Source: Bacteroidia bacterium (GTDB taxonomy: Bacteria > Bacteroidota > Bacteroidia > SpSt-205). Taken from it: DNA of 60,894 nucleotides. The notes beneath the pieces were generated by a model. The model was not told the DNA's origin. It ran no database searches and worked only from the letters and a program-made list of their open reading frames with translations. Below, in pieces: positions 5,506-49,123 of this stretch. Both the position numbers and the translations under genes were made by a program. The stretch lies in contig JANXAJ010000008.1 in NCBI GenBank assembly GCA_025062295.1, positions 1-60,894 on the forward strand, read 5' to 3'. Position 1 is the first letter of the stretch; each line of letters opens with the position of its first letter.

Positions 5506-6071
5506 CAAAAGCGTGAAGTAGAAGGCTGGGGTGGCAGGAAAAGGAGAGCAAACTGTCCGAAGAAACCTTCTATACGGTCTCGGGCTGCACCGTCTATCCC
5601 TTCCAACAGAGTGGTCTGAGGTCGACGGCGAAAGTACAGAAGGCTTATCTCACTCCACGGATTAGGACGCCATGAGAAACCTATACCCCATCCAACTCCA
5701 TTCACCGAAAAGGAAGCGGGTATCCCTGAAATCGGCTGCCGCTGAGAAGAGCGAGGCATAGCTGTCAGACGAAAGACATTCCCCTCAACTATGGGAGAGA
5801 GGCTTTTCTTGAGAGGCCTCAGCCGCAGGCTTAGCCCCAGACTGTTCCAACGGGTCTGGGTGAGGCGAGCCTGACGACGGTCCTGGCTGACAAAGCGTCC
5901 CATTTCAAAAAAAAGTCCAGGCTGAAGGCGGCGCTGCCCTCCAAATCGCACGCCACACCCTCCTGCTCCATAAAACCGATGCCACACTTCATCAGAGGCT
6001 ACTAAATCATTCTGGCTTGTGTGTCCGCCCCACCCACCAAAAAGAACTACTTGAAGCCATATCCATCCCAT
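5505..6071 (-). CDS. Hypothetical outer-membrane beta-barrel-like protein
   Basis: 188 residues with a hydrophobic, Trp/Gly-rich N-terminus and alternating aromatic/polar strands in the second half (GVGWGIGFSWRP, EISLLYFRRR, FFGQFALLFLPP), suggesting a small membrane barrel. No specific family recognised. TATCTTTG lies 5 nt before the ATG, giving a nearly leaderless start. Its TGA overlaps the sdaAB ATG by one base, so sdaAB is probably expressed from the same mRNA, a surprising pairing of an envelope protein with serine catabolism. Confidence 0.6.
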   Translation of the reverse strand: MGWIWLQVVLFGGWGGHTSQNDLVASDEVWHRFYGAGGCGVRFGGQRRLQPGLFFEMGRFVSQDRRQARLTQTRWNSLGLSLRLRPLKKSLSPIVEGNVFRLTAMPRSSQRQPISGIPASFSVNGVGWGIGFSWRPNPWSEISLLYFRRRPQTTLLEGIDGAARDRIEGFFGQFALLFLPPQPSTSRF

Positions 6072-6073
6072 CT

Positions 6074-6274
6074 TTACAAAGATAAAAGCTTTTCTACTTT
6101 GTGCAGGGCAGTCTGAAGGCGTCGGAGACGCTTCTCCATCTGCTGAAGTTGAATCAGACGCTGCATCTCATGAGCTCGGAGGGCATCTCCCATCTCCGAC
6201 CGGAGCGCCTCTTCATAGTCTGAAAGGGCCGACCGAAACCTATCCCATGCTTCTATCACCTTTTCCCAATCCAC
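6074..6274 (-). CDS. Small helical (coiled-coil) protein
   Basis: About 66 residues, highly charged and predicted all-helical (VIEAWDRFRSALSDYEEALR, MQRLIQLQQMEKRLRRLQTA). No family recognised. The GTG at 6274 is preferred over the GTG at 6292 because TACTTTCG sits exactly 4 nt upstream of it. It runs head to tail with the barrel-like gene and sdaAB. Codon phase and composition look coding, but the protein is short. Confidence 0.5.
   Translation of the reverse strand: MDWEKVIEAWDRFRSALSDYEEALRSEMGDALRAHEMQRLIQLQQMEKRLRRLQTALHKVEKLLSL
6077..6084 (-). promoter_or_regulatory. -7 element TATCTTTG before the barrel-like gene
   Basis: Perfect TAnnTTTG match on the minus strand, 5 nt before the ATG at 6071. 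It overlaps the last codons of the upstream small helical gene. Confidence 0.65.
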
Positions 6275-6278
6275 CTTC

Positions 6279-6286
6279 CGAAAGTA
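6279..6286 (-). promoter_or_regulatory. Candidate -7 element TACTTTCG before the small helical gene
   Basis: Minus-strand TACTTTCG, one mismatch to the consensus, 4 nt before the GTG at 6274. Confidence 0.4.
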
Positions 6287-6532
6287 CAGCACGGTGGGGA
6301 TAATTCATAAAGCTGTAGGGAGTATTTACCTTTGCCAATCCGTGTTTGAGCAGAAAGATTATTTATCCCGACCTTTTAGGAGGTGTAGAATTCAAAGGTT
6401 GGGATACTCCATCAAGGGAGCGTTCCTTAGGGCTTCCCAATCTCTTTGGAGAGAAAGGGAGGCCTTTTCTGACCCCAGCAGGGCAGCTTCTCTCTTCCTC
6501 CCCTTTCTTGGGAGACAAATCCTTATAGACTC
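6287..6532 (+). promoter_or_regulatory. Upstream region of the cell-wall cluster with promoter at 6327-6334
   Basis: This stretch separates the divergent small helical gene from rsmH. TACCTTTG at 6327-6334 is a perfect -7 element and would drive the rsmH-to-TPR operon with a leader of about 190 nt. A GTG at 6342 opens a reading frame to 6548 that overlaps the start of rsmH, but the peptide is Arg/Ser-rich without recognisable similarity, so I do not call it a gene. The mraZ regulator that usually precedes rsmH is absent. Confidence 0.55.
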
Positions 6533-7420
6533 ATGGAATCTGTGGTGAAAACCTACCATGTCCCTGTCTTGTGCGATGAAGCAGTGGAAGGACTAATCAC
6601 AGATTTAGATGGTATTTATGTAGATGCGACCTATGGGGGAGGTGGGCATGCTCGGGCGATTTTGAAGAAGCTAAGCGGGAAAGGACGCCTCTATGCTATA
6701 GATAAGGACCCAGCTGCCCCGCTTTCTGTCCTGCAAGATGAACGGTTTCAAGGAATCAGAGGAGACTTCAGGGACATAAAGGAGCTACTGGCAAGATGGG
6801 AAGTAGAGCGGGTCCATGGGATTTTGGCAGATTTAGGAGTCTCTTGGCATCAGTTAGATACGCCCGAAAGGGGTTTCAGCTACCGATGGATAGCGCCGCT
6901 GGACCTACGAATGAACCCTTCAATCGGTGAGCCAGCGTGGGTCTGGATCGGCAAACAAACGATTTCTTCCTTGGCTAAAATCCTTCGGCTTTATGGCAAC
7001 CTGCCCAAGAGTCATCGTCTGGCTAAAGCTATCCTGAAAAATTGGCACAGCGAATTCACCACGGGGGAACTGGTCGCCTGTGCTGAAGCTGTCTTTGGTC
7101 CGAAAGCTTCGCATTACAGTGCTCCTCTGTTTCAAGCCATTCGAATAGCAGTAAATGCAGAACTTGAGGCATTAGAGAGACTTCTGCGTGCCGCAGAAGC
7201 CCTCATTGTCCCAGGGGGACGATTGGTGATCCTTACTTATCATAGTGGAGAGGCTCGACTGGTAAAAGCCTTTATCCGAACCCCCTATCGCTGGGATCCA
7301 GTTACAGGTCATCAGCAATTCCAGTGGCGCCTTCTTCGTAAGGTCAGACCCTCTCCAACCGAAGTAGCCCGAAATCCTAGAAGCCGCTCAGCCATTCTCT
7401 GGGTTGCAGAGAAGACATGA
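6533..7420 (+). CDS. rsmH: 16S rRNA (cytosine(1402)-N4)-methyltransferase RsmH
   Basis: SAM-dependent methyltransferase modifying C1402 in the ribosomal P site. Motifs: YHVPVLCDEAVEGL, the SAM-binding VDATYGGGGHARAIL, YAIDKDPAA, GILADLGVSWHQLDTPERGFSY, and the terminal NPRSRSAILWVAEK. The usual HSLEDR stretch reads HSGEAR here. Length 295 residues is normal. It is the first gene of the division/cell-wall cluster and overlaps the FtsL-like gene by 4 nt. Confidence 0.95.
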   Translation: MESVVKTYHVPVLCDEAVEGLITDLDGIYVDATYGGGGHARAILKKLSGKGRLYAIDKDPAAPLSVLQDERFQGIRGDFRDIKELLARWEVERVHGILADLGVSWHQLDTPERGFSYRWIAPLDLRMNPSIGEPAWVWIGKQTISSLAKILRLYGNLPKSHRLAKAILKNWHSEFTTGELVACAEAVFGPKASHYSAPLFQAIRIAVNAELEALERLLRAAEALIVPGGRLVILTYHSGEARLVKAFIRTPYRWDPVTGHQQFQWRLLRKVRPSPTEVARNPRSRSAILWVAEKT

Positions 7421-7710: not shown

Positions 7711-9754
7711 GACCCTCAAGCGCTTTTATCTCATCCTTATTGGATCTGTCATCGCATGGATAGGATTAGCAGGTCGGTTGATGTACCTACAGTGGAAGTA
7801 TCGTGAAGCCTCTCCCTACGAGCCTTATGCTCAGCGCCCTTACCTCCGCCGAGTGGCAGGGGAGCGAGGTAGCATTTTTGCTCGGGATTATACTCTCTTA
7901 GCCACCAGCATGCCTCTCTTCCGAGTCGCAGTAGACCCTACCGCATGGGAAAAAGCAGAAATCCAAGATTCTCTTCATCTCTTAGCAGAAGGGCTGAGTC
8001 GGCTCTTTCCCGATATTTATCCTCATGCTGCGAAAGTTTGGTCTCTATTATACGAACGATGGAAAGCAGGGGATCGCCATGTCTATCTTTTGCCTTATAA
8101 GGTCCTTCTGACCTACCAGCAGCAGAAAGCTATCGCTGAACTGCCTCTTCTGCGAAATAAGTTAGGTAGAAAGGCCCTTATCATAGAAAAGATCACACAT
8201 AAAAGATCATATCCCTATGGAGGTTTAGCGCGGGCTACTCTGGGGTACTTAGTAAATGACTCTGTGGCTTGGCGAGGACTTGAGAGTGCTTTTCATGAAG
8301 TTTTACGCGGAGAGGAGCGTTGGATACTCGTTCGGCGCCTTCCGAATGGAATTGAGATCCCTTTAGAAGACTTAGCGGAATATGAGCCCCAGCCAGGGGC
8401 TGATATCTTCACTACAATAGACCCTCACCTTCAGGATATTGTGAGCGACGCTTTAGAGCGAGCAGTGAAGCGTCATCGTGCTCAAGAAGGAGTGGCTATC
8501 TTGATGGAAGTAAAGAGTGGTGAGATTCTGGCTATAGCTAATGCAGGAGAGACGTTCAATCATGCTGTGAGTACTCTCTGGGAACCTGGATCTACTTTTA
8601 AGGTAGCGACGGCAGCAGCTCTCTTAGAGGAAGGTGCGATTGAAGTGAGACAGCGTCTGCTGGTCCCCGCCACGCTTATGGTGGCGGATCGAAGCCTCTC
8701 CGATGGCTATGGTACGACTATCATGACCTTTGCAGAGGCGCTAGCTCGCTCAAGTAATGTAGCTTTTGCTAGCCTTGCCTTCAAAGTATTTGGACATCAG
8801 CCAAGGAAGTTTTATGCCTATTTAGAGAGATTTGGGCTCCTACAACGATCAGGTATCTCCCTCCATTCAGAGCCGCGTCCTACCTATATCCCCCTGCAAA
8901 GCTCTCACTTCAATCCAACGACCCTCCCTTGGATGGCGATTGGGTATAATATTCAGCTTACCCCTCTTCAGCTTTTGACTTTCTACAACATGATTGCAAA
9001 TGATGGACGATGGGTTCCTCCCAAGTTAGTGCGAGAGATAAGATACCCTGACGGGCGATGTGAAGAGCCGCCTCTGCCTCCGAGCCGACTTGTCATGAAA
9101 CCTCCTACAGCTCAGACCCTTCGTCGGCTGATGGAAGAAGTGGTAGAGAAAGGAACTGCTCGCACGATTGCGACCTCGCTTTATAGGATTGCGGGCAAAA
9201 CGGGTACAGCCAAAAAAGTAGAAGGAGGAGTGTATGTGAATCGGTATCGGGCTTCATTCGTAGGGTTTTTTCCAGTGGAGCATCCACGCTACTCCTGCAT
9301 CGTGGTGATAGATGAGCCGCAGGATGGCAGTATCCATGGCGGCGAAGTAGCAGCCCCAGTTTTTCGGGAAATAGCTGATGCTGTGGTATTTAGAGACTTG
9401 GGCGTAGCTCCTCGGTCGCTGGAACCTGTAATGCCTCGCTCGCAGCCCTCCCTACCGGTCATGGTGCAGCGGCGAGTGATCCCCCTCTATAATGCTCTGA
9501 GCATTTCTACCCCCGACCGTCCCCCCACGCCATGGGTACGCACCCATTCAACCCCTTACTATGTACAATTTCTCCCTCATAACCGCTCCCTTCCAGAGAG
9601 CACTATCGGGATGAGCTTACGCAGTGCTCTCTATGAGCTTGAACAAGCAGGATACACTGTTTATTGGAAGGGGAAAGGCCCCCTTGTAGTGGAAGTAGAA
9701 CGCCGAACTCCTGAAGAAGTTCTCTTGAAGCTCGGTTATGAAGCGCCTCTCTAA
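7703..9754 (+). CDS. ftsI: Penicillin-binding protein 3 / FtsI with C-terminal PASTA domain
   Basis: Septal peptidoglycan transpeptidase. One N-terminal membrane anchor (residues about 8-30), dimerisation domain beginning RGSIFARDYTLLATS, then the transpeptidase with SxxK at 297-300 (GSTFK), SSN at 350-352 and KTGT at 499-502. The last ~60 residues form a single PASTA-like domain (ESTIGMSLRSALYELEQAGY), as in other Bacteroidota FtsI proteins. I use the ATG at 7703, inside the end of ftsL, which gives a normal membrane anchor; an ATG 12 nt upstream is also possible. Its end overlaps murE by 17 nt. Confidence 0.95.
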   Translation: MSKTLKRFYLILIGSVIAWIGLAGRLMYLQWKYREASPYEPYAQRPYLRRVAGERGSIFARDYTLLATSMPLFRVAVDPTAWEKAEIQDSLHLLAEGLSRLFPDIYPHAAKVWSLLYERWKAGDRHVYLLPYKVLLTYQQQKAIAELPLLRNKLGRKALIIEKITHKRSYPYGGLARATLGYLVNDSVAWRGLESAFHEVLRGEERWILVRRLPNGIEIPLEDLAEYEPQPGADIFTTIDPHLQDIVSDALERAVKRHRAQEGVAILMEVKSGEILAIANAGETFNHAVSTLWEPGSTFKVATAAALLEEGAIEVRQRLLVPATLMVADRSLSDGYGTTIMTFAEALARSSNVAFASLAFKVFGHQPRKFYAYLERFGLLQRSGISLHSEPRPTYIPLQSSHFNPTTLPWMAIGYNIQLTPLQLLTFYNMIANDGRWVPPKLVREIRYPDGRCEEPPLPPSRLVMKPPTAQTLRRLMEEVVEKGTARTIATSLYRIAGKTGTAKKVEGGVYVNRYRASFVGFFPVEHPRYSCIVVIDEPQDGSIHGGEVAAPVFREIADAVVFRDLGVAPRSLEPVMPRSQPSLPVMVQRRVIPLYNALSISTPDRPPTPWVRTHSTPYYVQFLPHNRSLPESTIGMSLRSALYELEQAGYTVYWKGKGPLVVEVERRTPEEVLLKLGYEAPL

Positions 9755-11276
9755 GCTCCTCAAAGGCATCAAGGGAGTCTATCGGATTCAGGGTGAGATG
9801 GACATAGACATTACCCATCTTACTGCCGATAGTCGGGAAGTGCGGCCAGGGTCCCTATTTGTTGCCTGGAAAGGACGTACGAATGATGGGCATCGCTTCG
9901 CTCACGAAGCCGTCGCTCGGGGCGCCCGAGCAATCCTTGTAGAGACTCCTATTGAGATTGACTCCTCCGTTACCCTCCTTCAGACTCAAAACAGCCGAGA
10001 AGCCTACGCTCATTTATGTGCTGCCTGGTTTGAATACCCCGCCTATCATCTCAAAACGATTGGTATCACAGGCACTAATGGTAAAAGCTCCACAGCCTAT
10101 TATATCTATCAGCTTCTAAAAGGATTAGGACGGCGTGTAGGCCTTATTGGCACTGTCTTTTGCTTAGCAGAAGAAGAAATACTTCCCGCCACCTTGACAA
10201 CGCCTGACAGCTATGAGCTCCATCGCCTTTTGAGCTACTACCTCCAGAAGGGCATCTCTCATGTGGTGATGGAAGTGAGTTCTATCGCTTTAGATCAGAG
10301 GCGGACCGAAGGCATTCCTTTCTCCGGCGCTATTTTTACAAACCTCTCTCACGACCACTTAGATTATCACGGGTCGTTTGCTGCTTATCGTGATGCAAAG
10401 AAGCGCTTATTTGATAACCTCTCTCAGACAGCTTTTGCTCTCACAAATGCGGATGATAAGCATGGACTCTTCATGCTACAGAACACTTCAGCAGTACGGT
10501 ACAGCTACAGCCTTCAAGGAGTAGCTGATTTCTCGCTTCGCTTGCGAGACTTAGGTTTGTGGGGCATAGAATATGAATTGCATCTAAGGTACGGAGAAGC
10601 CCACCCTCATCGAGAGATACCCCTTCTACTGGAGACGAGCCCAACCCTCACTGCCCCTCTGATAGGGCGCTTCCAGGGATATAATCTGTTAGCAGCAGTA
10701 GCAGGGGCTTTTCTGATAGAGGGCGAAGGTGAGATCGCTGAGCTTCGGGCTCGCTGGCATGAACTTGTTCAACTCTCTACTTTACTAAGAACCCTTCCCG
10801 GCCGCTTAGAACCTGTTCCTCTACAAGAAGGGCGAGTAGGACTTGTAGATTATGCCCATTCGCCTGACGCTGTGGAGCAAGTGCTTCAGACGCTGCGTCC
10901 GCTTCTCTCGGGAGAAGGGAAACTCGTCGTCGTGCTTGGAGCGGGCGGCGATCGTGATCGAAAAAAGCGCGCACCGATGGGTCAGATCGCTGCTCGTCTG
11001 GCTGACATAGTCATACTAACGAGCGACAATCCCCGCTCAGAGGATCCACTCTCTATCATTCAGGAGATGATGGAAGGGATACCTCTTACTCTCCGCTCAA
11101 AGGTTTTTGCTATCCCCGATAGGCAAGAAGCCATCCAAACCGCTGTTCAGCTTTCACCGCCCCGTAGCCTCATTGCTGTCCTCGGAAAAGGGCATGAAAC
11201 TTACCAGGAAATTCAAGGCATAAAATATCCTTTTAGCGACAGGGCTGTTTTAGAAGCTTTGGCTTATGCTCACTGA
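9738..11276 (+). CDS. murE: UDP-MurNAc-tripeptide ligase MurE (meso-DAP type)
   Basis: Cytoplasmic ATP-dependent ligase adding the third peptide residue to UDP-MurNAc-L-Ala-D-Glu. Mur ligase features: ITADSR-like N-domain (LTADSREVRPGSLFVA), ATP loop GITGTNGKSST at about 109-119, SHDHLDYHGSF, and the C-domain DYAHSPDAVE. DNPRSEDP at 430-437 contains the DNPR motif that distinguishes meso-diaminopimelate enzymes from lysine enzymes, so the cell wall should be DAP-type. Ends inside mraY (11-nt overlap). Confidence 0.95.
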   Translation: MKRLSKLLKGIKGVYRIQGEMDIDITHLTADSREVRPGSLFVAWKGRTNDGHRFAHEAVARGARAILVETPIEIDSSVTLLQTQNSREAYAHLCAAWFEYPAYHLKTIGITGTNGKSSTAYYIYQLLKGLGRRVGLIGTVFCLAEEEILPATLTTPDSYELHRLLSYYLQKGISHVVMEVSSIALDQRRTEGIPFSGAIFTNLSHDHLDYHGSFAAYRDAKKRLFDNLSQTAFALTNADDKHGLFMLQNTSAVRYSYSLQGVADFSLRLRDLGLWGIEYELHLRYGEAHPHREIPLLLETSPTLTAPLIGRFQGYNLLAAVAGAFLIEGEGEIAELRARWHELVQLSTLLRTLPGRLEPVPLQEGRVGLVDYAHSPDAVEQVLQTLRPLLSGEGKLVVVLGAGGDRDRKKRAPMGQIAARLADIVILTSDNPRSEDPLSIIQEMMEGIPLTLRSKVFAIPDRQEAIQTAVQLSPPRSLIAVLGKGHETYQEIQGIKYPFSDRAVLEALAYAH

Positions 11277-12675: not shown

Positions 12676-14045
12676 AGAGCACTGTAGGAATCTGGGGACT
12701 GGGAGAGAGTGGAGTAGGAGCAGCTCTCTTAGCTAAAAAATGGGGCTATGATCTCATTTTAGTTGCAGACAAGCCGCCCGCACCGAATTATGCGGCTCGC
12801 CTTCATGAGGAAGGACTTACTTGGCAAGTAACCTCTGATCCAGCCAGCCTTCTCTCTCAGGTAGAGTGGGTCGTGCGAAGCCCAGGAATCCACCCCAATC
12901 ATCAGAGTCTGCGAGTCCTTCAAGAGAGGGGAGTAACTGTTTTTTCAGACTTAGAGTGGGGGTGGCGCCATTTCCCTGCTTCTGCTCAGCTTTGGCTTGT
13001 CACAGGCTCATCTGGCAAAAGCTCTACTACCTCCCTACTCAATCACATGCTGCGTACGGCAGGACGCCACACGGTGGCCTGTGGAAATATCGGTTACAGC
13101 TTCTGCGCAGCGCTGAGTGAGCCTACAGTTTATGAGTACTATGTGGTGGAAGCCAGTTCTTTTCAGCTTTGGGATACTTTCTCTCTCATTCCGCATTTAG
13201 CAGTAATCACAAGTCTGGTACCAAATCACATAGATTGGCATGGAAGCCTCTCCGCCTATGCCGAGGCGAAGCTTCGCTTTGTAGAGCGACTTCCCTCCTC
13301 TTCCCATCTCCTCTACGATTTTGATAGTCAGCTTTTGAACCGTTGGCTTGAGTCCTATAAGATTCAGGCTCAAATATGGCGGTATAGCTTCCATCCAAGT
13401 GAGGGTATCGTTGCATGGATAGAAAAAGATAAACTTATATGCGATATGAAAACAAACGGAGATACCGAAAGATGGGAGATTTCGTATGAGGGAACTCCTT
13501 TAGAGGAGCTTCCTCAGCGTAAAAACAGCTTAGCTGCTGCGATTGCAGGACGCTTGATGGGCTTACGGCGAGCAGATCTGCGCCGCTCCTTTGAAACTTT
13601 AGAAAAAATGCCACATCGGATGGAACGCGTTGAGATCGTGGAAGGCGTCCTATACGTCAATGACTCCAAAGCCACAACGACGGATGCGGTGTGGTATGCC
13701 ATGCAGAGTTTTGAACGGCCCATTATTTGGATTGCGGGGGGCGTGGATAAAGGAAATGACTGGGGCGAGCTATTAGACATTGTTAGAGCGAGGGTAAAGG
13801 CCCTCATACTGATTGGCCAAGACCCTGAGCCGATTTATCGGGCGTTTTGTGATACCGTACCGGTGATCGAGCGTGCTAAGTCTATGAAGGAGGCAGTAGA
13901 AAAAGCTCATGCGTTAGCTCGTCCAGATGATGTAGTTCTCCTTTCACCTGGATGTGCAAGCTTTGACTGGTTTAGAAGCTATGAAGAACGCGGCAATGCC
14001 TTCAAAGAAGCTGTCCGCAACCTCAAGTCCGCCCAAGCGTCGTAA
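12672..14045 (+). CDS. murD: UDP-MurNAc-L-alanine:D-glutamate ligase MurD
   Basis: Adds D-glutamate to UDP-MurNAc-L-Ala. N-terminal Rossmann-like UDP domain (VGIWGLGESGVGAALLAKK), ATP loop at 111-118, EASSFQL, NHIDWHGS, and the C-terminal NDSKATTTDA and LLSPGCASFDWF motifs typical of MurD. The ATP loop reads TGSSGKSS instead of the usual TGTNGKTT; the catalytic Lys is kept. Length 457 is normal. Overlaps mraY by 4 nt. In most Bacteroidota ftsW and murG follow; here an unrelated reading frame begins inside its 3' end. Confidence 0.95.
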   Translation: MKSTVGIWGLGESGVGAALLAKKWGYDLILVADKPPAPNYAARLHEEGLTWQVTSDPASLLSQVEWVVRSPGIHPNHQSLRVLQERGVTVFSDLEWGWRHFPASAQLWLVTGSSGKSSTTSLLNHMLRTAGRHTVACGNIGYSFCAALSEPTVYEYYVVEASSFQLWDTFSLIPHLAVITSLVPNHIDWHGSLSAYAEAKLRFVERLPSSSHLLYDFDSQLLNRWLESYKIQAQIWRYSFHPSEGIVAWIEKDKLICDMKTNGDTERWEISYEGTPLEELPQRKNSLAAAIAGRLMGLRRADLRRSFETLEKMPHRMERVEIVEGVLYVNDSKATTTDAVWYAMQSFERPIIWIAGGVDKGNDWGELLDIVRARVKALILIGQDPEPIYRAFCDTVPVIERAKSMKEAVEKAHALARPDDVVLLSPGCASFDWFRSYEERGNAFKEAVRNLKSAQAS

Positions 14046-14736
14046 CCCTTTTAAGGTGGGGTTGCGTCGCCTGCGCCAATTGACACCCTCAGCGGTCTAT
14101 CGCTTTCGTCGTCGCATCAAGCGACTGCGTGTGTATCTTTCTCTCTATACTTTCCCAGCCGAACCTCCTACTCATCCCTCACTGGATACCCTTTTTCGTC
14201 GAGCTGGCAAACTTCGTCAGGCGTATCTCAATCTGGAATGGATTCAGGCTCATGCACCTCATTGGCGAAAAGCCGCTAAAAAAGAGGTAAAGCGTCGTCG
14301 TCGGCGCCTCAAAAGGGTATATAAGGCAGAGAGACAAACGATACGAGACCTCCTTCGTACATGGAAGGAACGATTTCCTTTTCCATGGCGCTCAGAGGAA
14401 GGTCTGCTTTTTTGGGCTCAGCAGGTCTCTCGTTGGGTCCAAGCTCAAAAGCAGAACGCTCTTAGCTTTCCAGCTCCCCCTTTTGATCCCACTCAGCTGC
14501 ATGAACTGCGAACCATATTGCGCCGTTGGGAGTTAGCAGGGACTTGGGCCCCTCTTCCCGAAACACCGCCTGCAAACCTAACCTCTTTACTGGGTAAGGT
14601 CCGAGACCTCTATCTCCTTCATAAGTGGCTTACTCGTACTGGCGCAGAAGAAGAGCTTCTGCAAAGAGTGGAGCAGCTCCAAAAAGACACAGAGGCGCAA
14701 GCCCTTGCTTTATGGAACGACTGGCGCTTTGGGTAA
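13996..14736 (+). CDS. CHAD-like helical protein
   Basis: About 246 residues, strongly basic and helical. The pattern resembles a CHAD domain: an Arg/Lys-rich first helix (AVYRFRRRIKRLRVYL), RRAGKLRQAYLNLEW, a run of basic residues around 110-125, LHELRTILRRWE and LGKVRDLYLLHKWL. CHAD domains bind inorganic polyphosphate through basic surfaces; polyphosphate binding here is inference. Possible starts at 13954, 13981 and 13996 all lie inside murD; I give the shortest overlap (50 nt). Its end overlaps the next TPR gene by 25 nt. Confidence 0.55.
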   Translation: MPSKKLSATSSPPKRRNPFKVGLRRLRQLTPSAVYRFRRRIKRLRVYLSLYTFPAEPPTHPSLDTLFRRAGKLRQAYLNLEWIQAHAPHWRKAAKKEVKRRRRRLKRVYKAERQTIRDLLRTWKERFPFPWRSEEGLLFWAQQVSRWVQAQKQNALSFPAPPFDPTQLHELRTILRRWELAGTWAPLPETPPANLTSLLGKVRDLYLLHKWLTRTGAEEELLQRVEQLQKDTEAQALALWNDWRFG

Positions 14737-42189: not shown

Positions 42190-43401
42190 ATGCAGCAAGT
42201 TACAGCTGGCGAGCTAATAGAAGTTTTTGATCATCTCTCCCGTAACCTCGCCCAGTATGAGGGGACTTATGCAGCTTTAGAGGAGCGATTGAGGAGCTTA
42301 GAACGGGAGTTCCGAGACAGGCAAGCCATCCTTGACAAGTTTGCTATCATCAGCGAGACTGATACTAGAGGGGTCATCACCTATGCTAACTCAAAGTTCT
42401 GTGAAGTATCGGGTTATACCTTGGAAGAGCTCGTGGGAAAGCCTCACAATATTATTCGCCATCCGGATATGCCTCGGGAAGCCTTCAAAGAATTATGGGA
42501 CACGATTAAAGCGGGCCAAATCTGGCAAGGCGAGGTGAAAAACCGCCGAAAGGATGGTTCCGCCTACTGGGTCTTAGCCACGGTAGGGCCCCTTCTGGAT
42601 GCTGAAGGGTATCCTTACCGCTACGTGTCCATGCGAATAGATATAACCAAGCTTAAAGAATTGGAGGCCAAGCTTCGTCAGGAGCGGGATCAGCTCGCTC
42701 ACGAGCTAGAAGAGAATTTCAAACTGGCAGGTGCTATCCAACAGGCTCTATTACCACCAACGGAAACTAGTCCCTCCTCTTCTTCATTTCCTCTTCCTTA
42801 CTTCGTCATCCTTCATTCTCAACAAAAGGTAAAGGGAACTTTTTACTGGCTTCATGCAACGCGCGGGCGCTGTCTCATTTTTGTAGGCGATATTCGCAAG
42901 GGTGGCATTGCCAGAGGGCTCCTCTCCGTCCTCTGCATCCAGCTGCTTCGGCACCTCGTGAAAGACAGAGGTATTCTTTCTCCCGAAAGAGTGGTAGAGG
43001 AATTAGATAACCATTTAGCAAGATTTTTTCAATCCAAGCCCCCCTTTCCGATCGAGGGCATGGTCATCTTAGTGGATTTTCTCAGACTCAAGCTCTCCTA
43101 CTTAGCCTTAGGCACGCAGGCTGTCCTCTTTCGTCAGGGAAGCGTTATCCCGCTCACAAGTTATCCCCACCATTTTGGTGAAATGACCAGCCGATACGCT
43201 CGTGAGACTACTATAGCCCTTGCCCCAGCAGATCGACTGTATGTGTATGCTGGAGAGTCTTTTCATCCTGATATGAAGGCGGAATTTCAGACCTTTTATC
43301 CTTTAGATTTTGCTCGGCAACGAGAAGCATTTTCTCAAGCGCTCTCTCCTCACTTCTCTGGAGAGCTTCTCATTCTGGGAATAGAAATTCCCTCAGCTTA
43401 G
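42190..43401 (+). CDS. Aer-type PAS domain plus degenerate PP2C/SpoIIE phosphatase domain
   Basis: 403 residues: a coiled-coil N-terminus (1-50), an Aer-type PAS domain (about 50-155; HNIIRHPDMPREAFKELW, IWQGEVKNRRKDGSAYW), a helical linker, and a C-terminal domain homologous to the SpoIIE/RsbU phosphatase of the next gene. Key acidic metal ligands are missing: GT at 216-217 where the paralogue has GD, VGDIRKGG for VGDSVGHG, AGES for SDGI and GEL for DDI. Probably catalytically dead, acting as sensor or regulator of its neighbour. TACTTTTG at 42164-42171 lies 18 nt upstream of the ATG. Confidence 0.8.
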   Translation: MQQVTAGELIEVFDHLSRNLAQYEGTYAALEERLRSLEREFRDRQAILDKFAIISETDTRGVITYANSKFCEVSGYTLEELVGKPHNIIRHPDMPREAFKELWDTIKAGQIWQGEVKNRRKDGSAYWVLATVGPLLDAEGYPYRYVSMRIDITKLKELEAKLRQERDQLAHELEENFKLAGAIQQALLPPTETSPSSSSFPLPYFVILHSQQKVKGTFYWLHATRGRCLIFVGDIRKGGIARGLLSVLCIQLLRHLVKDRGILSPERVVEELDNHLARFFQSKPPFPIEGMVILVDFLRLKLSYLALGTQAVLFRQGSVIPLTSYPHHFGEMTSRYARETTIALAPADRLYVYAGESFHPDMKAEFQTFYPLDFARQREAFSQALSPHFSGELLILGIEIPSA

Positions 43402-43402
43402 G

Positions 43403-44695
43403 ATGGCCTCCTTTTTTTCTCCCCAGGAATTGAGCCGTTTCCTCTCTGAGATAGCGGCTCATTTGGCTCAGTACGAAGCGATGGAGGCTTCTCTCCGAGA
43501 AAGGCTGTCCTCCTTAGAGCGAGAGTTTGGGGACCGCATGCGCATAGTGGATCGCTTTGCCCTCATCAGTGAGACGGATACTCGTGGAGTCATTACCTAT
43601 GCAAATCCTAAGTTTTGCGAGGTTTCTGGCTATAGCCTTTCAGAGCTCCTCAATAAGCCTCATAATATTATTCGGCATCCGGACATGCCGCGAGAAGTTT
43701 TCAAAGATTTATGGGAAACCATCAAAGCTGGAAAGATTTGGCAGGGCGAGATTAAGAACCGACGCAAAGATGGAAGTGCCTATTGGGTACTATCGACAAT
43801 CGGTCCGCTTTTAGATGCGGATGGAGTACCCTACCGGTATGTCTCCATGCGGGTAGATATTACTTCTCAGAAGGAGTTAGAACAGAAGCTCCGATTAGAA
43901 CGGGATCAGCTTGCTCATGAGCTCTATGAAGACCTCCAATGGGCACAATCCATCCAGACGGCTCTGCTTTCTCAAGCGAATTTGGACGAAGGAACCCTTC
44001 GGATTTCCCTCCCTTATTTCCTTATCTGGAAGCCTTTGCAGCTGGTGAGCGGGGATTTTGTGTGGGCGATGGAAGAGAAGGGACGAATTCTCATCTTTGT
44101 GGGAGATAGCGTGGGACATGGGTTAGCTGGTGGGCTGATAAGCACCCTCTTTCTTCAAGAGATTTATCATCAAGTGATGGAGCGGGGAATCTGGCGCCCT
44201 GAACAGCTTGCTGAAGAGCTGGATGAAAGATTAGGCTACCTTTTCCGGCATAAATTCCCCCTCCCTATCACAGTGGATGGCACTCTCCTCTTAATAGATC
44301 GCCTTCGAATGAAGATGGAATATGTAGCTATGGGCGGAAAAGGAGGTATCGTCCGAAATGGACAATTTATACCCTTTGAGCGGTATCGTTTCAGTTTCGG
44401 TGATCTTTTGGGACATACTGTACAAGAAGAGACTCTTTTTCTGGAAGAAGGAGATCAAATCTATCTATATAGCGATGGAATTGCTGACCAGCTAAATCCT
44501 GAGGGGAAAAAGTTTGGACATAGGCGATTAGAGGAGATGTTGATTCAGATGGCAAAATTCCCTCTCACCGATCGCAAAGAGGAAGGGGAGCGCATACTAA
44601 AAGAATGGCGAGCCGATGCCCCTCAAGCTGATGATATCATTCTTTTGGGCATAGAAATTTCTAATGAACCCCTTGTGGATTCTAACTCCCAGTGA
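43403..44695 (+). CDS. Aer-type PAS domain plus PP2C/SpoIIE serine phosphatase
   Basis: 430 residues with the same layout as the preceding gene, 1 nt away. The PAS domain (about 52-155) keeps HNIIRHPDMP and KNRRKDGSAYW of the Aer class, which often binds FAD. The phosphatase domain looks active: VSGDF (D218), VGDSVGHG (D235), YSDGIADQ (D358) and ADDIILLG (D410-D411). Such proteins usually dephosphorylate anti-anti-sigma or related STAS proteins; no such partner is in the window. Overlaps the mqnB-like gene by 32 nt. Confidence 0.85.
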   Translation: MASFFSPQELSRFLSEIAAHLAQYEAMEASLRERLSSLEREFGDRMRIVDRFALISETDTRGVITYANPKFCEVSGYSLSELLNKPHNIIRHPDMPREVFKDLWETIKAGKIWQGEIKNRRKDGSAYWVLSTIGPLLDADGVPYRYVSMRVDITSQKELEQKLRLERDQLAHELYEDLQWAQSIQTALLSQANLDEGTLRISLPYFLIWKPLQLVSGDFVWAMEEKGRILIFVGDSVGHGLAGGLISTLFLQEIYHQVMERGIWRPEQLAEELDERLGYLFRHKFPLPITVDGTLLLIDRLRMKMEYVAMGGKGGIVRNGQFIPFERYRFSFGDLLGHTVQEETLFLEEGDQIYLYSDGIADQLNPEGKKFGHRRLEEMLIQMAKFPLTDRKEEGERILKEWRADAPQADDIILLGIEISNEPLVDSNSQ

Positions 44696-45323
44696 GATAG
44701 AACGAAGGGCTGTAGAGAGGATTCTGCCTTATCCTCCTCTCGTCACGGGGATAGGAGCTTTAGCTACATTGAATACCCTATGGCGACTGTACTCTCAGAG
44801 TCAAGCTCGTCCGATTGCTCTTATTGTTTTGGGCATAGCTGGGAGTTATACTCGCTCTTATCCTCTCCTCTCAGTGGTGTATGTTCAGCGAGAGATATGG
44901 GGCGATTTAGGGCGACGAGGTCGCTTCTTCCATCCTACTCCACCAGCGCTTCGCGGAGACCAGCCAGTGGAATGGGTGGCCCCTATTTCTCCTCTTTCTA
45001 TGCCTTCTGTCATCGGATTGACCCTACATACTGTGAGCGCCAGCTTGCGCGAGGCACGCTATTGGCGTCGAGCTTACCCTCATGCTCACATAGAGACCCA
45101 AGAAGGCGCTGCTTACTTTCTATTCGGAGCAGCTCTTCAAATCCCCGTCTATGCTTTCAGAGTGCTGTCAAACTATGCAGGTCATCGCCACTGGCAAAAG
45201 GAAGCCGCCTTAGACGCTCTCGCTACATTCACGGAAACTCATGTGGTACCTCTATGTAAATGGATCTTGGATACCCACTCCTGCCCCTACACGAGGCGAG
45301 CTTTTCGGGGATGGGCTATTTGA
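44664..45323 (+). CDS. mqnB: Futalosine hydrolase (MqnB-like nucleosidase)
   Basis: 219 residues of the purine nucleoside phosphorylase fold. IVLGIAGSYTR near the N-terminus and the IETQEGAAYFLFGAALQIPVYAFRVLSNYAGHR stretch (about 142-175) match MqnB, which removes the adenine from futalosine in the alternative menaquinone pathway. No other mqn gene is nearby, so a related nucleosidase role is possible. The last 27 codons overlap the next gene by 83 nt in another frame; the conserved core ends just before the overlap. Confidence 0.75.
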   Translation: MNPLWILTPSEIERRAVERILPYPPLVTGIGALATLNTLWRLYSQSQARPIALIVLGIAGSYTRSYPLLSVVYVQREIWGDLGRRGRFFHPTPPALRGDQPVEWVAPISPLSMPSVIGLTLHTVSASLREARYWRRAYPHAHIETQEGAAYFLFGAALQIPVYAFRVLSNYAGHRHWQKEAALDALATFTETHVVPLCKWILDTHSCPYTRRAFRGWAI

Positions 45324-46056
45324 AACCATCCGCTTCTGGCGAGGACAACCTCTCTTTCTTTCCGATCACCTCCATCGGCTGATAGAGGGCGCTCGCATCT
45401 TATCTTTGCAGCTCCCCTTACCTCCTCAATTCCTGATTGGAGAGATTCATCGTTTAGCCCAAGCATACCCAGAAGCCCGCCTCAAGCTGCTCCTCTACCG
45501 AATAGGGGAAGGAGCTTATACTCCTTCCACTTCTCACTCTCATCTCCGATTATGTATTACTCCCCTAAGTGAGACACCTTTTCCTTTAGGTCCGCCACAA
45601 CTTGCCGTTAGATTTCCCGTGAATTTCATCGTTCCCACCCCTTGGAGTCCTTACAAAACCCTAAGTGCCTTGGGATATGTGCAAGCTGCCAGCTATGCTC
45701 AAGCCCGAGGATGTCACGAAGCGATTCTGGTCTCTGCAGGAGGTCTCCTTTCAGAGACGAGCCGAGCCAATCTGTTTTTTTGGGATGGGAAAGTTCTTCG
45801 CACACCCGCTTTGGGAACAGGCTGCATCGCCGGCATCTGCCGTCTGCAGGTGATTCGGACAGCTCATCGGCTGGGCATCCCAGTAGAAGAAGGCTTCTAC
45901 CCTCCTGATGCCCTTCTTAGCGCTGTGGAAAGCTTCACAACAAACGTTGTCCAAGGGATCGTCCCTCTTCTTGAGCTTCGTGATGTAAGAAGAACCTTTC
46001 ATGTAGGTGAGAGAAGCATCGCAGCCCACATAGCTAAACACTTACATCTGAGCTAA
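45241..46056 (+). CDS. Aminotransferase class IV (aminodeoxychorismate lyase / branched-chain aminotransferase-like)
   Basis: 271 residues, fold type IV PLP enzyme. YVNGSWIPTP and GELFGDGLFETIRF at the N-terminus, the PLP Lys in WSPYKTLSALGYVQA (about residue 140), GGLLSETSRANLFFWDGK, and FTTNVVQGIVPL. Short length (271) and lack of a clear DRGF motif favour PabC-like aminodeoxychorismate lyase or a D-amino acid transaminase over IlvE; I cannot decide. Start ATG lies within mqnB. Confidence 0.82.
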   Translation: MWYLYVNGSWIPTPAPTRGELFGDGLFETIRFWRGQPLFLSDHLHRLIEGARILSLQLPLPPQFLIGEIHRLAQAYPEARLKLLLYRIGEGAYTPSTSHSHLRLCITPLSETPFPLGPPQLAVRFPVNFIVPTPWSPYKTLSALGYVQAASYAQARGCHEAILVSAGGLLSETSRANLFFWDGKVLRTPALGTGCIAGICRLQVIRTAHRLGIPVEEGFYPPDALLSAVESFTTNVVQGIVPLLELRDVRRTFHVGERSIAAHIAKHLHLS

Positions 46057-46471
46057 GGATGGAAAGCCTTAATTGATAACAAGATTACACTGAAAGTTTC
46101 TCTACCCTTGTGCAGGTAGGCTTTAGAGCATAAAAGAGAGGCTTCCGATCATTCTAAAGGAGAGCTAATCGCTTGATTTGGCATACATTAGTTTGTCAGC
46201 ATTTCCCTATGAACTCTTATGACACACTAAGTGTCATCCGATAGAGACAGGATAAGAATCCAGGCTCAAGACCCGTTTTTGAGGTTTGCGGCAGCTAATC
46301 CTAAACCTCTGTATGCTTTTTAGACTTAACCCTATGTAGCAGAAGGAATTACATCTAAAAGCTGGATAAGTCAAAACATTCCAAGCACAAGTAGGCATGA
46401 TTATTGTACCTCATCTTAGTACCATGTTCAATTTCGTTTCCCGTCCTGTGGCAGGCTCCGGGACACTCAGA
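46057..46471. other. 415-nt intergenic region with a short palindromic hairpin
   Basis: No coding frame I trust. It contains ATGACAC-ACTAA-GTGTCAT at 46219-46237, a perfect 7-bp stem that could be an operator or small hairpin, and a weaker 7-bp inverted repeat (GAGGTTT / AAACCTC) at 46281-46309. The reading frame of the next gene extends back to 46397, but its signal peptide begins at 46472. No clear TAnnTTTG promoter is seen just upstream of that ATG. Confidence 0.4.
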
Positions 46472-49123
46472 ATGAAGAGCTTGCAGTATTATGTGCAGGC
46501 ATGGACCTGCTTACTAATTGTATTTACCGTAGGTAGTAGGATTTACGCCCAGCAGCCATCTCTCCAAGTAAACCCCAGTACCCCCACTCAGGTGTGCGGT
46601 CCAGACCTCACTATCGACGTACATTTTACCGCCTCTGGTTTTAGTCCGACCGACGAGTTTTTCGTTGAGCTTCAGGACGACCAAGGAACCCCCGTTGCTT
46701 CCTCCTTAAACTCTGTCTCTGCCAGCCCCGCGCAAATCTACTTCTCCTCTGGCTTGAGTACAGGTACTTACTTCATCGTAGTGAAATGCACCACTGCCAC
46801 TCCTGTGGTGGAGAGCCCACCGTATCAAGTGGAGCTGCTTCAGCAGGCAAGAATTAATAGTGTGAGCTGTACCCCACCGACTAACAATTTAGCAACGGCT
46901 GGAATACCCGTGACTTTTATAGTAGATCAACCAATGTTGATGGGTAACTACACAGGCGATTACCAGATCATTTTTGATCCTGGTGATGGTAGCACACCCA
47001 TTACTTACTCACCCGTTTCTCCGGCTTCATTTCCCTACTTTATCAATCACACCTACAATCTTGCCACTGCCACGGGACAATTCTACACCTACAGTATCAC
47101 GGTAGCATTTGCCTCTGTAAACTCGCCTGCTTCATCAGCTGGATGCCATTTTACCTGCACAGGAAATATGCGAGTAGAACCTATTATCAGCATAGGCCCG
47201 AATGCTCCCACAGCCTTGTGTGCTGGAAGCGGTGGTAACACCGTCACCGTACCCTTCAACCCTCAGGGCTTCCCAGCAGGTACGCAGTTCACCGCTCAAG
47301 TAACAGGTCCAGGAGGTGCGCTCCCCAGTAGTAACATCACAGTCAGTAGCAACAACGTAATTATAAACTTTGCAGGTCAAAGCCCCGGTACTTACACGCT
47401 CATTGTCTCCAGCAGTAACCTCAACTTTCCTGCATCCAGCCAGCCCCATCAAATAGATCTGGTTGATATTATTTGCCGAGTTAATCCCAACCCTGTCCTT
47501 GCAGGAAATCCAGTGAATTTCACCGTGTCTGTCATCCCCTCAAGCTATCAAGTCCACCAAGTAATTTTCTCCCCAGGAGGAGGCTTGCCCATACAAAACC
47601 ATAATACTTCTTTAACTTGGAGCTACACCTACCCTGCCGGGGGCTCCTATACCTATTCAATTCAGGTACAGCTCTTGGATGTAACAGGGGGACCTCTGTG
47701 TGAGATAGAGTGCTCTGGACAGATAGATGTCCTCCAAAGCATTACAATAGACCCGAGTGCTCCCACAGCCTTGTGTGCTGGAAGCGGTGGTAACACCGTC
47801 ACCGTACCCTTCAACCCTCAGGGCTTCCCAGCAGGTACGCAGTTCACCGCTCAAGTAACAGGTCCAGGAGGCGCACTCCCCAGTAGTAGCATCACAGTCA
47901 ATAGTAACAACACCGTGACTATAGACTTTACAGGTCAGAGCCCAGGCTCTTACACCCTCACCATTTCCAGTAATACTAACCCGCCTGTATCCAGTCCCCC
48001 CCATCAGATAGACCTAATCGATATCACTTGCCGAGCTAATCCTAACCCTGTCCTTGCAGGAAACCCAGTAGACTTCACCGTGTCTGTTATCCCCTCAACT
48101 TACCAAGTCCAACAGGTAACTTTCTCTCCAGGAGGGGGCTTGCCCCAACAGACCTATAACTCTTCAACCTGGAGCTACACCTACCCCGCCGGGGGCTCCT
48201 ACACCTATTCAATTCAGGCACAAATCTTGGCTCCAACAGGAGGCCCTCTTTGTGCGATAACATGCTCAGGTGATATAGAGGTCCAACAGCCTATCCCTCC
48301 TTCCATTTCCATAGACCCCAATCTCCCCCTCGCAATATGTGATACTAATGCTACTATACCTGTAAGCTTCACCACGCAGGGTAACTTTGGTTCTGGCAAT
48401 CAGTTTTTTGTTACGCTATTAGACTCAAATAACAATCCTGTCTTCACCAGCGCCCCTGTTACCTCCAGCCCAGCTCAGGTTACCTTCTCGGGAAGCAGCC
48501 TACAACCTGGTGCTTATCAGGTCGTAGTCCAAAGCACTAACCCACAGGTATCCAGCCAGCCCCAGTCTATACTTTTCATTCCCTTCGGTGGTATTAAGTG
48601 CATCCTGCCGGATACCGTGGTGAGTGCAGGCACTAATCTCTCTATCAGCATACAACCTAACAACAACTTGCCTAGCCTTCCCAGTGGCGTTAGTCTTCAG
48701 GTTACTTTCAACCCCGGTGGGAGCTTATCCCCTCAGACCCAAACTTTCACCAGCCTGCCTATCAATCTGAGCTATACCTACAACAGTGTAGGTTACTACC
48801 AGTACTCCATACAAGCCGTATTGCTAGTGAATACGCCTGGAGGTTCGCGCCCTGCCTGCGATTGGGTTTGCTCAGGTAACATACGGGTTACGCCCCGTAC
48901 TGCTCTCTCCTCTCTTAATGAGGTTCCTGCACTGAGCCGAGTCGGAGACTTTTACTGTGTCCGCAGCTCAGAAGCAGGACAGGTTCGAGTCTTTGATAGC
49001 GTAGGTCGGCTCCTACTCACTGCTTCTACGGGGGAATTTTTCGCCATCCCCACCAGAGGAGTATATCTGGTGCAAGTTTCCACCACTGGGAGCAGTCATA
49101 CTTTCCGCCTCTTTATACCCTGA
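46472..49123 (+). CDS. T9SS-exported protein of repeated Ig-like/PKD-like modules
   Basis: About 883 residues: signal peptide (MKSLQYYVQAWTCLLIVFTV...YAQ), then four tandem modules of about 185 residues, each an Ig-like half (LCAGSGGNTVTVPFNPQGF...SPGTYTL) followed by a PKD-like half (NPNPVLAGNPV...TYPAGGSYTYSIQ), and a C-terminal T9SS-type domain (VRVFDSVGRLLL...TRGVYLVQVS). Modules 2 and 3 are almost identical. Probably a surface adhesin or extracellular structural protein. Ser/Thr/Asn/Pro-rich composition differs from its Leu/Arg-rich neighbours. Followed by a strong terminator. Confidence 0.8.
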   Translation: MKSLQYYVQAWTCLLIVFTVGSRIYAQQPSLQVNPSTPTQVCGPDLTIDVHFTASGFSPTDEFFVELQDDQGTPVASSLNSVSASPAQIYFSSGLSTGTYFIVVKCTTATPVVESPPYQVELLQQARINSVSCTPPTNNLATAGIPVTFIVDQPMLMGNYTGDYQIIFDPGDGSTPITYSPVSPASFPYFINHTYNLATATGQFYTYSITVAFASVNSPASSAGCHFTCTGNMRVEPIISIGPNAPTALCAGSGGNTVTVPFNPQGFPAGTQFTAQVTGPGGALPSSNITVSSNNVIINFAGQSPGTYTLIVSSSNLNFPASSQPHQIDLVDIICRVNPNPVLAGNPVNFTVSVIPSSYQVHQVIFSPGGGLPIQNHNTSLTWSYTYPAGGSYTYSIQVQLLDVTGGPLCEIECSGQIDVLQSITIDPSAPTALCAGSGGNTVTVPFNPQGFPAGTQFTAQVTGPGGALPSSSITVNSNNTVTIDFTGQSPGSYTLTISSNTNPPVSSPPHQIDLIDITCRANPNPVLAGNPVDFTVSVIPSTYQVQQVTFSPGGGLPQQTYNSSTWSYTYPAGGSYTYSIQAQILAPTGGPLCAITCSGDIEVQQPIPPSISIDPNLPLAICDTNATIPVSFTTQGNFGSGNQFFVTLLDSNNNPVFTSAPVTSSPAQVTFSGSSLQPGAYQVVVQSTNPQVSSQPQSILFIPFGGIKCILPDTVVSAGTNLSISIQPNNNLPSLPSGVSLQVTFNPGGSLSPQTQTFTSLPINLSYTYNSVGYYQYSIQAVLLVNTPGGSRPACDWVCSGNIRVTPRTALSSLNEVPALSRVGDFYCVRSSEAGQVRVFDSVGRLLLTASTGEFFAIPTRGVYLVQVSTTGSSHTFRLFIP
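47203..47316 (+). repeat. 114-bp exact direct repeat, copy A
   Basis: Identical base for base to 47758-47871, offset 555 nt (one module). Similarity continues with scattered differences on both sides over most of the module. Confidence 0.9.
47758..47871 (+). repeat. 114-bp exact direct repeat, copy B
   Basis: Second copy of the repeat at 47203-47316, in the third module of the same gene, in the same frame. Points to recent duplication or gene conversion between modules. Confidence 0.9.

Follow-up and report, generated by a model that had tools for sequence, protein, structure and literature searches.

RsbP, the energy-stress phosphatase of Bacillus subtilis, is among the described systems closest to the gene pair analysed here. 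It combines a PAS domain, a coiled coil and a PPM domain in one polypeptide. It senses energy and controls its PPM domain through the linker (PMC3183031, PMC12143880). RsbU-type PPM phosphatases are described as becoming active once coiled-coil linkers have joined two PPM domains and the M2 metal site has been completed by the switch helices (excerpts of PMC12143880 and PMC5468089). Activation in this class is believed to occur when crossing linker helices bring two phosphatase domains into contact.

RssB from Escherichia coli provides a second comparison. The PPM-fold domain of this bacterial signalling protein has lost active-site residues, according to excerpts of PMC7226468. RssB carries a receiver domain and works as the sigma-S adapter for ClpXP. 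To our knowledge, it has no live twin in tandem. PAS/coiled-coil/PPM sensors (RsbP, PMC3183031) and bacterial PPM pseudophosphatases (RssB, PMC7226468) were both already known. Pseudophosphatases that regulate active relatives are reported in eukaryotes (excerpts of PMC10211241). For bacteria, the literature searched, by titles and the first lines of abstracts, described no tandem dead-live pair of PPM sensors.

The window (the whole stretch of DNA analysed, 60,894 nucleotides) contains two tandem paralogues, copy A and copy B, placed head to tail. In each one, a long helix at the N-terminus is followed by a PAS domain with the DIT motif at its end, then by a helical linker and, at the C-terminus, by a PPM domain (Table 1). 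Both frames are intact, with matches to PAS_3 and SpoIIE, and the sequence-only reading of tandem paralogues with coiled coil, Aer-type PAS and SpoIIE/PP2C domains holds. The architecture of each copy is like that of RsbP. However, the PAS domain of RsbP lacks the DIT motif, according to excerpts of PMC3183031, and the two copies conserve it. Moreover, RsbP is active and has the hydrolase RsbQ as partner, whereas the partner proposed here is a dead twin. Like RssB, copy A has a PPM-fold domain without its active-site residues, although RssB has a receiver domain where A has PAS. The junction between both genes makes their co-translation likely. The two downstream frames, putatively mqnB (44664..45323) and pabC (45241..46056), are also neighbours of the pair in relatives. 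Further downstream, a frame of 908 amino acids (46397-49123) presents repeated modules. Its C-terminal tail, judged by eye, presumably resembles a type IX secretion sorting signal.

Table 1. Features of the gene pair and of its downstream neighbours, in positions of the window.
Feature	Position	Strand	Basis
Copy A, 403 aa: coiled coil, PAS, coiled-coil linker, dead PPM/PP2C (SpoIIE-type) domain; predicted pseudophosphatase	42190..43401	+	ORF, Pfam, site alignment, AF2
Copy B, 430 aa: coiled coil, PAS, coiled-coil linker, PPM/PP2C with intact metal site; predicted active phosphatase	43403..44695	+	ORF, Pfam, 6k4e alignment, AF2
PAS domain of A, residues 53-151	42346..42642	+	sequence matches and model
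PAS domain of B, residues 54-152	43562..43858	+	sequence matches and model
Linker helix of A (model residues 153-187), as long as that of B	42646..42750	+	AF2
Linker helix of B (model residues 154-188)	43862..43966	+	AF2
PP2C domain of A, degenerate (residues 200-403): T in place of D218, GDxxGHG without its HG, SDG replaced or deleted, GE in place of DD	42787..43398	+	site alignment
PP2C domain of B, intact (residues 202-419)	44006..44659	+	Pfam and 6k4e alignment
A/B junction TAG-G-ATG (stop of A, one base, ATG of B)	43399..43405	+	
Downstream ORF sharing 32 bases with B; conserved next to the pair	44664..45323	+	
Second downstream ORF; likewise a conserved neighbour	45241..46056	+	

The phosphatase domain of B matches the Pfam family SpoIIE (PF07228) with E=1.7e-19 and 71 bits, over profile positions 2-191. 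In A, the match reaches E=2.8e-4 and 21.3 bits over positions 2-129, below the curated cut-off of 25 bits. Copy B conserves the five metal aspartates that had been read from its sequence (D218, D235, D358, D410 and D411). They align to the motifs GGDF, DCAGHG, STDG and QRDDI of 6k4e, the PP2C domain of SiaA from Pseudomonas aeruginosa. At the same columns, copy A shows T217, D234, a gap, G391 and E392. Thus, four of the five aspartates are gone, D234 (equivalent to D235) is the sole survivor, and deletions adjoin two of the lost sites. The losses had been listed as GT, DIRKGG, AGES and GEL. This list is right except in one detail: the aspartate that opens DIRKGG is kept, and the HG that follows is lost. 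Judged by these sites, A is a catalytically dead pseudophosphatase and B is a predicted active phosphatase.

The surviving D234, together with the acidic E356 and E392 near two of the lost sites, might let A work as a phosphatase through rearranged residues. We give this residual activity very little credence, since both species that carry a dead copy have lost the metal-ligand motifs, and the residues replacing them differ.

The SiaA domain is the best PP2C sequence match of B and the best fold match of both copies. Nevertheless, SiaA is a different and longer sensor. Its family NF038263 (NCBIfam) has length 658 and a cut-off of 700 bits, and B scores 85.9. The PP2C segment of A alone gave no match at E<=1 among PDB sequences.

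At least 14 SpoIIE domains above the Pfam cut-off are present in the 2.05 Mb genome of the window (G000). Besides B, 13 of them pass it individually; a two-piece match on contig C22 (14336-14842) passes only jointly. Eleven of the 13 aligned over all four motifs, with the aspartates kept in 11/11. In L173 the aspartates are seen in two separate pieces, and in L002 the last two motifs aligned and both are present. Copy A is the only clearly dead SpoIIE domain seen in this genome, leaving aside the weak matches L174 to L177, in a search that can miss weak dead domains (A itself is absent from its list).

The AF2 model of A has a mean pLDDT of 79.8 and a pTM of 0.58, with block pLDDT values of 71-93 in the PP2C part. 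Its best structural match (VIA-align) is 6k4e, with Z 25.3 and 229 residues aligned at 2.8 A. The next ones are P. aeruginosa RssB (Z 22.3), Rv1364c (21.8) and RsbX (21.2); E. coli RssB (6od1, 8t85) is lower, with Z 15.8. The modelled A keeps the PPM fold, which may come partly from the other five of the six rows in its alignment, all with intact site motifs. The model of B has a mean pLDDT of 82.0, with 6k4e also as top match. The linker helix measures 35 residues in both models, and 46 amino acids separate DIT from the PP2C start in both copies, without indels. In the alpha3/4 region, two helices span 373-383 and 388-403 in the model of B, and 362-369 and 374-384 in that of A.

The PAS domain matches PAS_3 of Pfam with E=2.6e-20 in A and 3.7e-20 in B. 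The PAS of A matches that of Aer (8dik) with E=2e-31 and that of MmoS (3ewk) with E=2.9e-40, and in the structural alignment it is 48-50% identical to Aer. The Aer-type assignment made earlier is therefore supported, and by sequence the PAS of both copies is of the Aer/NifL/MmoS type. In Aer, the flavin is surrounded by His53, R57, M69, W70, Asn85 and Arg115, according to excerpts of PMC9668731. H53, R57, W70, N85 and R115 correspond to H86, R90, W103, N118 and R149 in A, and the same residues are kept in B. These five of the six flavin-site residues are invariant in 16/16 rows of the family alignment. The exception is M69, which is leucine in 15 rows, A and B among them, and methionine in one. 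Because the flavin-site residues of Aer are kept, both copies likely bind flavin. On the other hand, the FAD-PAS proteins Aer, NifL and MmoS have as outputs a chemoreceptor, NifL and a histidine kinase, in contrast with the PPM phosphatase pair of A and B.

We compared 13 genomes of the order, 11 of them in the genus. A family member (E<=1e-60) occurs in 9/13. Tandem pairs precede the frames labelled mqnB and pabC in G000, G005, G004 and G006; single copies precede them in G003, G008, G002 and G011. The single copy of G010 lies on a contig where these neighbours were not found. The first copy is dead in two of the four tandem pairs (G000 and G005) and intact in the other two (G004 and G006). 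All second and single copies have an intact metal site, including the singles of the first-copy group in G008 and G011. Hence the dead twin proposed as conserved beside its live partner is so in G000 and G005, but this is not general. Apparently active first copies in relatives, which the sequence-only reading had considered contrary to its proposal, exist in the genus and are absent from the G000/G005 sub-lineage. The genes lie 1 nt apart in G000 and 3 nt apart in G005, whereas the live-live pairs have gaps of 26 and 31 nt, with the start codons of B picked by alignment.

G002 and G003 have no separate A, yet they group with G000 and G005 on rpoB (82/100). Since these close relatives do without it, A is dispensable. 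Either loss or recombination removed the dead copy from them. Beside the single genes, in pieces of G002, G003, G010, G008 and G011, a tblastn search for remnants of A or B returned only two matches of 11 residues, both in the upstream piece of G008 (E 0.56 and 0.70). In a scan of genome contigs, only L075 among the 80 loci listed belonged closely to the family, judged by identity and coverage, and no further dead copy appeared. The L075 record is Bacteroidia bacterium KatS3mg026, a MAG presumably of hot-spring type.

In the full-length tree, the two dead copies group together (99/98). The second copies form a group (86/87), and so do the active first copies with single copies (80/83). The six-row clade of first copies that includes the dead pair is weakly supported (70/66), although the position in the operon also favours it. 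Nine PP2C columns are deleted in both dead copies, four after the SDG site and five before the DD site. They are present in 13/13 active rows, a comparison without the incomplete G004b row. The replacements at the lost sites differ between G000 and G005: T/A, IRKGG/TGTIG, a deletion/VGRL and GE/SD. Parallel losses alone are thus no proof of a single event. For the common deletions, we favour an inactivation of the metal site before the split of G000 and G005.

Between these two species, the coiled coil and PAS are 83% identical in A and 78% in B. The PP2C domain shows 42% in A and 62% in B. The sensor half of A is thus no less conserved than that of the live B. In the dead PP2C domains, the codon positions differ at 88/64/135 of 202 codons, and 30/44 four-fold sites differ. 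A pairwise codon model rejects ω=1, with 2ΔlnL=65.5 for the dead PP2C pair and 127 to 149 for three active pairs. Synonymous sites are saturated, which makes the ω values unreliable, and only the rejection of ω=1 was used. A branch ω model on the 13-row tree was dropped for the same saturation, and because its ω=1 null fits looked unconverged (one 2ΔlnL of 700). The constraint on the dead PP2C domain appears relaxed but real, and undiminished on the sensor half. With this rejection of neutrality and the common deletions, A seems to have been maintained by selection after the loss of catalysis, in two species.

The faster evolution of PP2C in A than in B, and the lack of A in G002 and G003, would also fit an inactivated gene heading for loss, which persists for the moment only thanks to its PAS half or by chance. 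Other family members do decay visibly. A distant third group of paralogues (b) is present in G004 (cut by a contig end), G008, G010, G005 and G009, and it is broken in three of them: G009b is a frameshifted piece at a contig end, G005b (L065, G005:C155, near 5596-6783 of the contig) has internal stops, and in G010b (L064, G010:C113) a TGA precedes the open part. Copy A, however, has no frameshifts and its frame is open in both species despite their saturated synonymous divergence, as the sequence-only reading required of a gene that is not decaying. Its model also folds, the common deletions suggest an inactivation older than the split, and neutrality is rejected. We set plain decay aside for the deletions and the codon tests. 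It stays as a rather unlikely rival, given that the dead A occurs in two species only. Taken together, the results suggest an old tandem duplication in which one copy lost catalysis in one sub-lineage, where it was kept but is dispensable.

In G003, a single gene (L056, G003:C71, 9492-10781) looks as if the N-terminal half of an A-type gene had been fused to a live phosphatase of B type. Up to residue 165, its diagnostic columns are A-like in six cases, B-like in two and neither in three; beyond it, one, seven and three. Its coiled coil and PAS are 85% identical to those of A from G000 and 72% to those of B. An origin by recombination is suggestive only, in a PAS-only tree that was mostly unresolved. 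In G006 (L060, G006:C1), the two live copies (9411-10727 and 8111-9421) have sensor halves, coiled coil plus PAS, that are 90% identical. Four-fold sites differ at 11/46 in PAS versus 37/69 in PP2C (Fisher p=0.002), a pattern as if gene conversion had acted on the sensor half.

The likeliest role of A, to which we would give slightly less than an even chance, is the heterodimeric control of B through the PAS domain and the coiled coil. An A:B dimer is the simplest reading in view of the similar PAS domains, the linkers of equal length and the adjoining genes with gaps of 1 and 3 nt. The proposed history begins with an old tandem duplication, within this order of Bacteroidia, that would have produced two Aer-type PAS/coiled-coil/PPM phosphatases. 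Copy A would then have lost its metal site in the ancestors of G000 and G005 and stayed as a pseudophosphatase. It may pair with B via PAS and the coiled-coil linker, and both may jointly sense the redox state of the flavin. The dead PPM domain of A would set the state of the switch helices, hence the activity, of B. In such a dimer, A would supply sensor and interface, and B catalysis. The complete proposal is a flavin redox sensor in which the live PPM domain is allosterically gated by its dead twin, with relatives that are live-live (ancestral) or back to a single sensor. We advance it tentatively.

Several observations stand against the heterodimer. They are the active first copies in G004 and G006, the absence of A from G002 and G003, the presence of the dead copy in two species only, and the absence of STAS or RsbW matches beside the pair in the loci searched. 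In addition, the switch helices are not specially kept. In the dead domain, the counts are 24/44 for these helices versus 61/158 for the remainder (Fisher p=0.08), with no preferential conservation beyond that of active pairs (35/44 versus 102/176, and 33/44 versus 118/177).

Copy A could instead act independently of B, as a homodimer with its own output, where PAS controls target binding by the dead PPM fold. RssB gives a precedent: the E. coli protein is a PPM-fold adapter without active-site residues, which keeps one of three metal aspartates according to excerpts of PMC7226468 and PMC5468089. P. aeruginosa RssB is also among the best structural matches of A. Nevertheless, A is kept only beside B, tightly coupled to it, in both species with a dead copy, and its PP2C domain evolves fast, unlike a conserved docking surface. 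We consider this RssB-like role unlikely.

It is also conceivable that A is a decoy, a competitive antagonist that captures the phosphorylated STAS substrate of B and leaves it uncleaved. This mode is known for pseudophosphatases such as STYX (excerpts of PMC10211241), and A arose as a paralogue from an active copy. However, substrate docking in PPM phosphatases involves the switch loop, the flap and the alpha3/4 loop, according to excerpts of PMC11418112. Deletions in A, both the common and further ones, shorten the alpha3/4 region, and we regard a decoy as quite improbable.

If heterodimeric control by A is true, a heteromeric, pseudoenzyme-based mode would be added to the bacterial partner-switching sensors. 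It would parallel, in bacteria, pseudokinase-kinase pairs such as FAM20A-FAM20C. The dead-live pair, the live-live pairs and the single copies within one genus offer a natural comparison for asking whether the second domain contributes to catalysis or just shapes the interface.

Under the heterodimeric reading, B would dephosphorylate a protein of the STAS anti-anti-sigma type encoded elsewhere. A tblastn search with the genome's own proteins found no STAS or RsbW genes beside the pair, in the window and 12 loci of relatives. The genome of the window has two matches to HATPase_c_2 (RsbW-type kinase) and three to STAS above the cut-off, and its STAS proteins, on contigs C4, C14 and C5, would be the likely substrates. 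On contig C14 of G000 (12906-14201; L002, L068, L073), neighbouring genes for a protein with a SpoIIE domain, a STAS protein and an RsbW-type kinase form a partner-switching cluster. This cluster is a candidate downstream module. Another STAS-domain protein of the same genome (C5:17365-17655, L074) has a C-terminal tail that consists of a long stretch of low complexity, made up of Glu, Asp and Trp.
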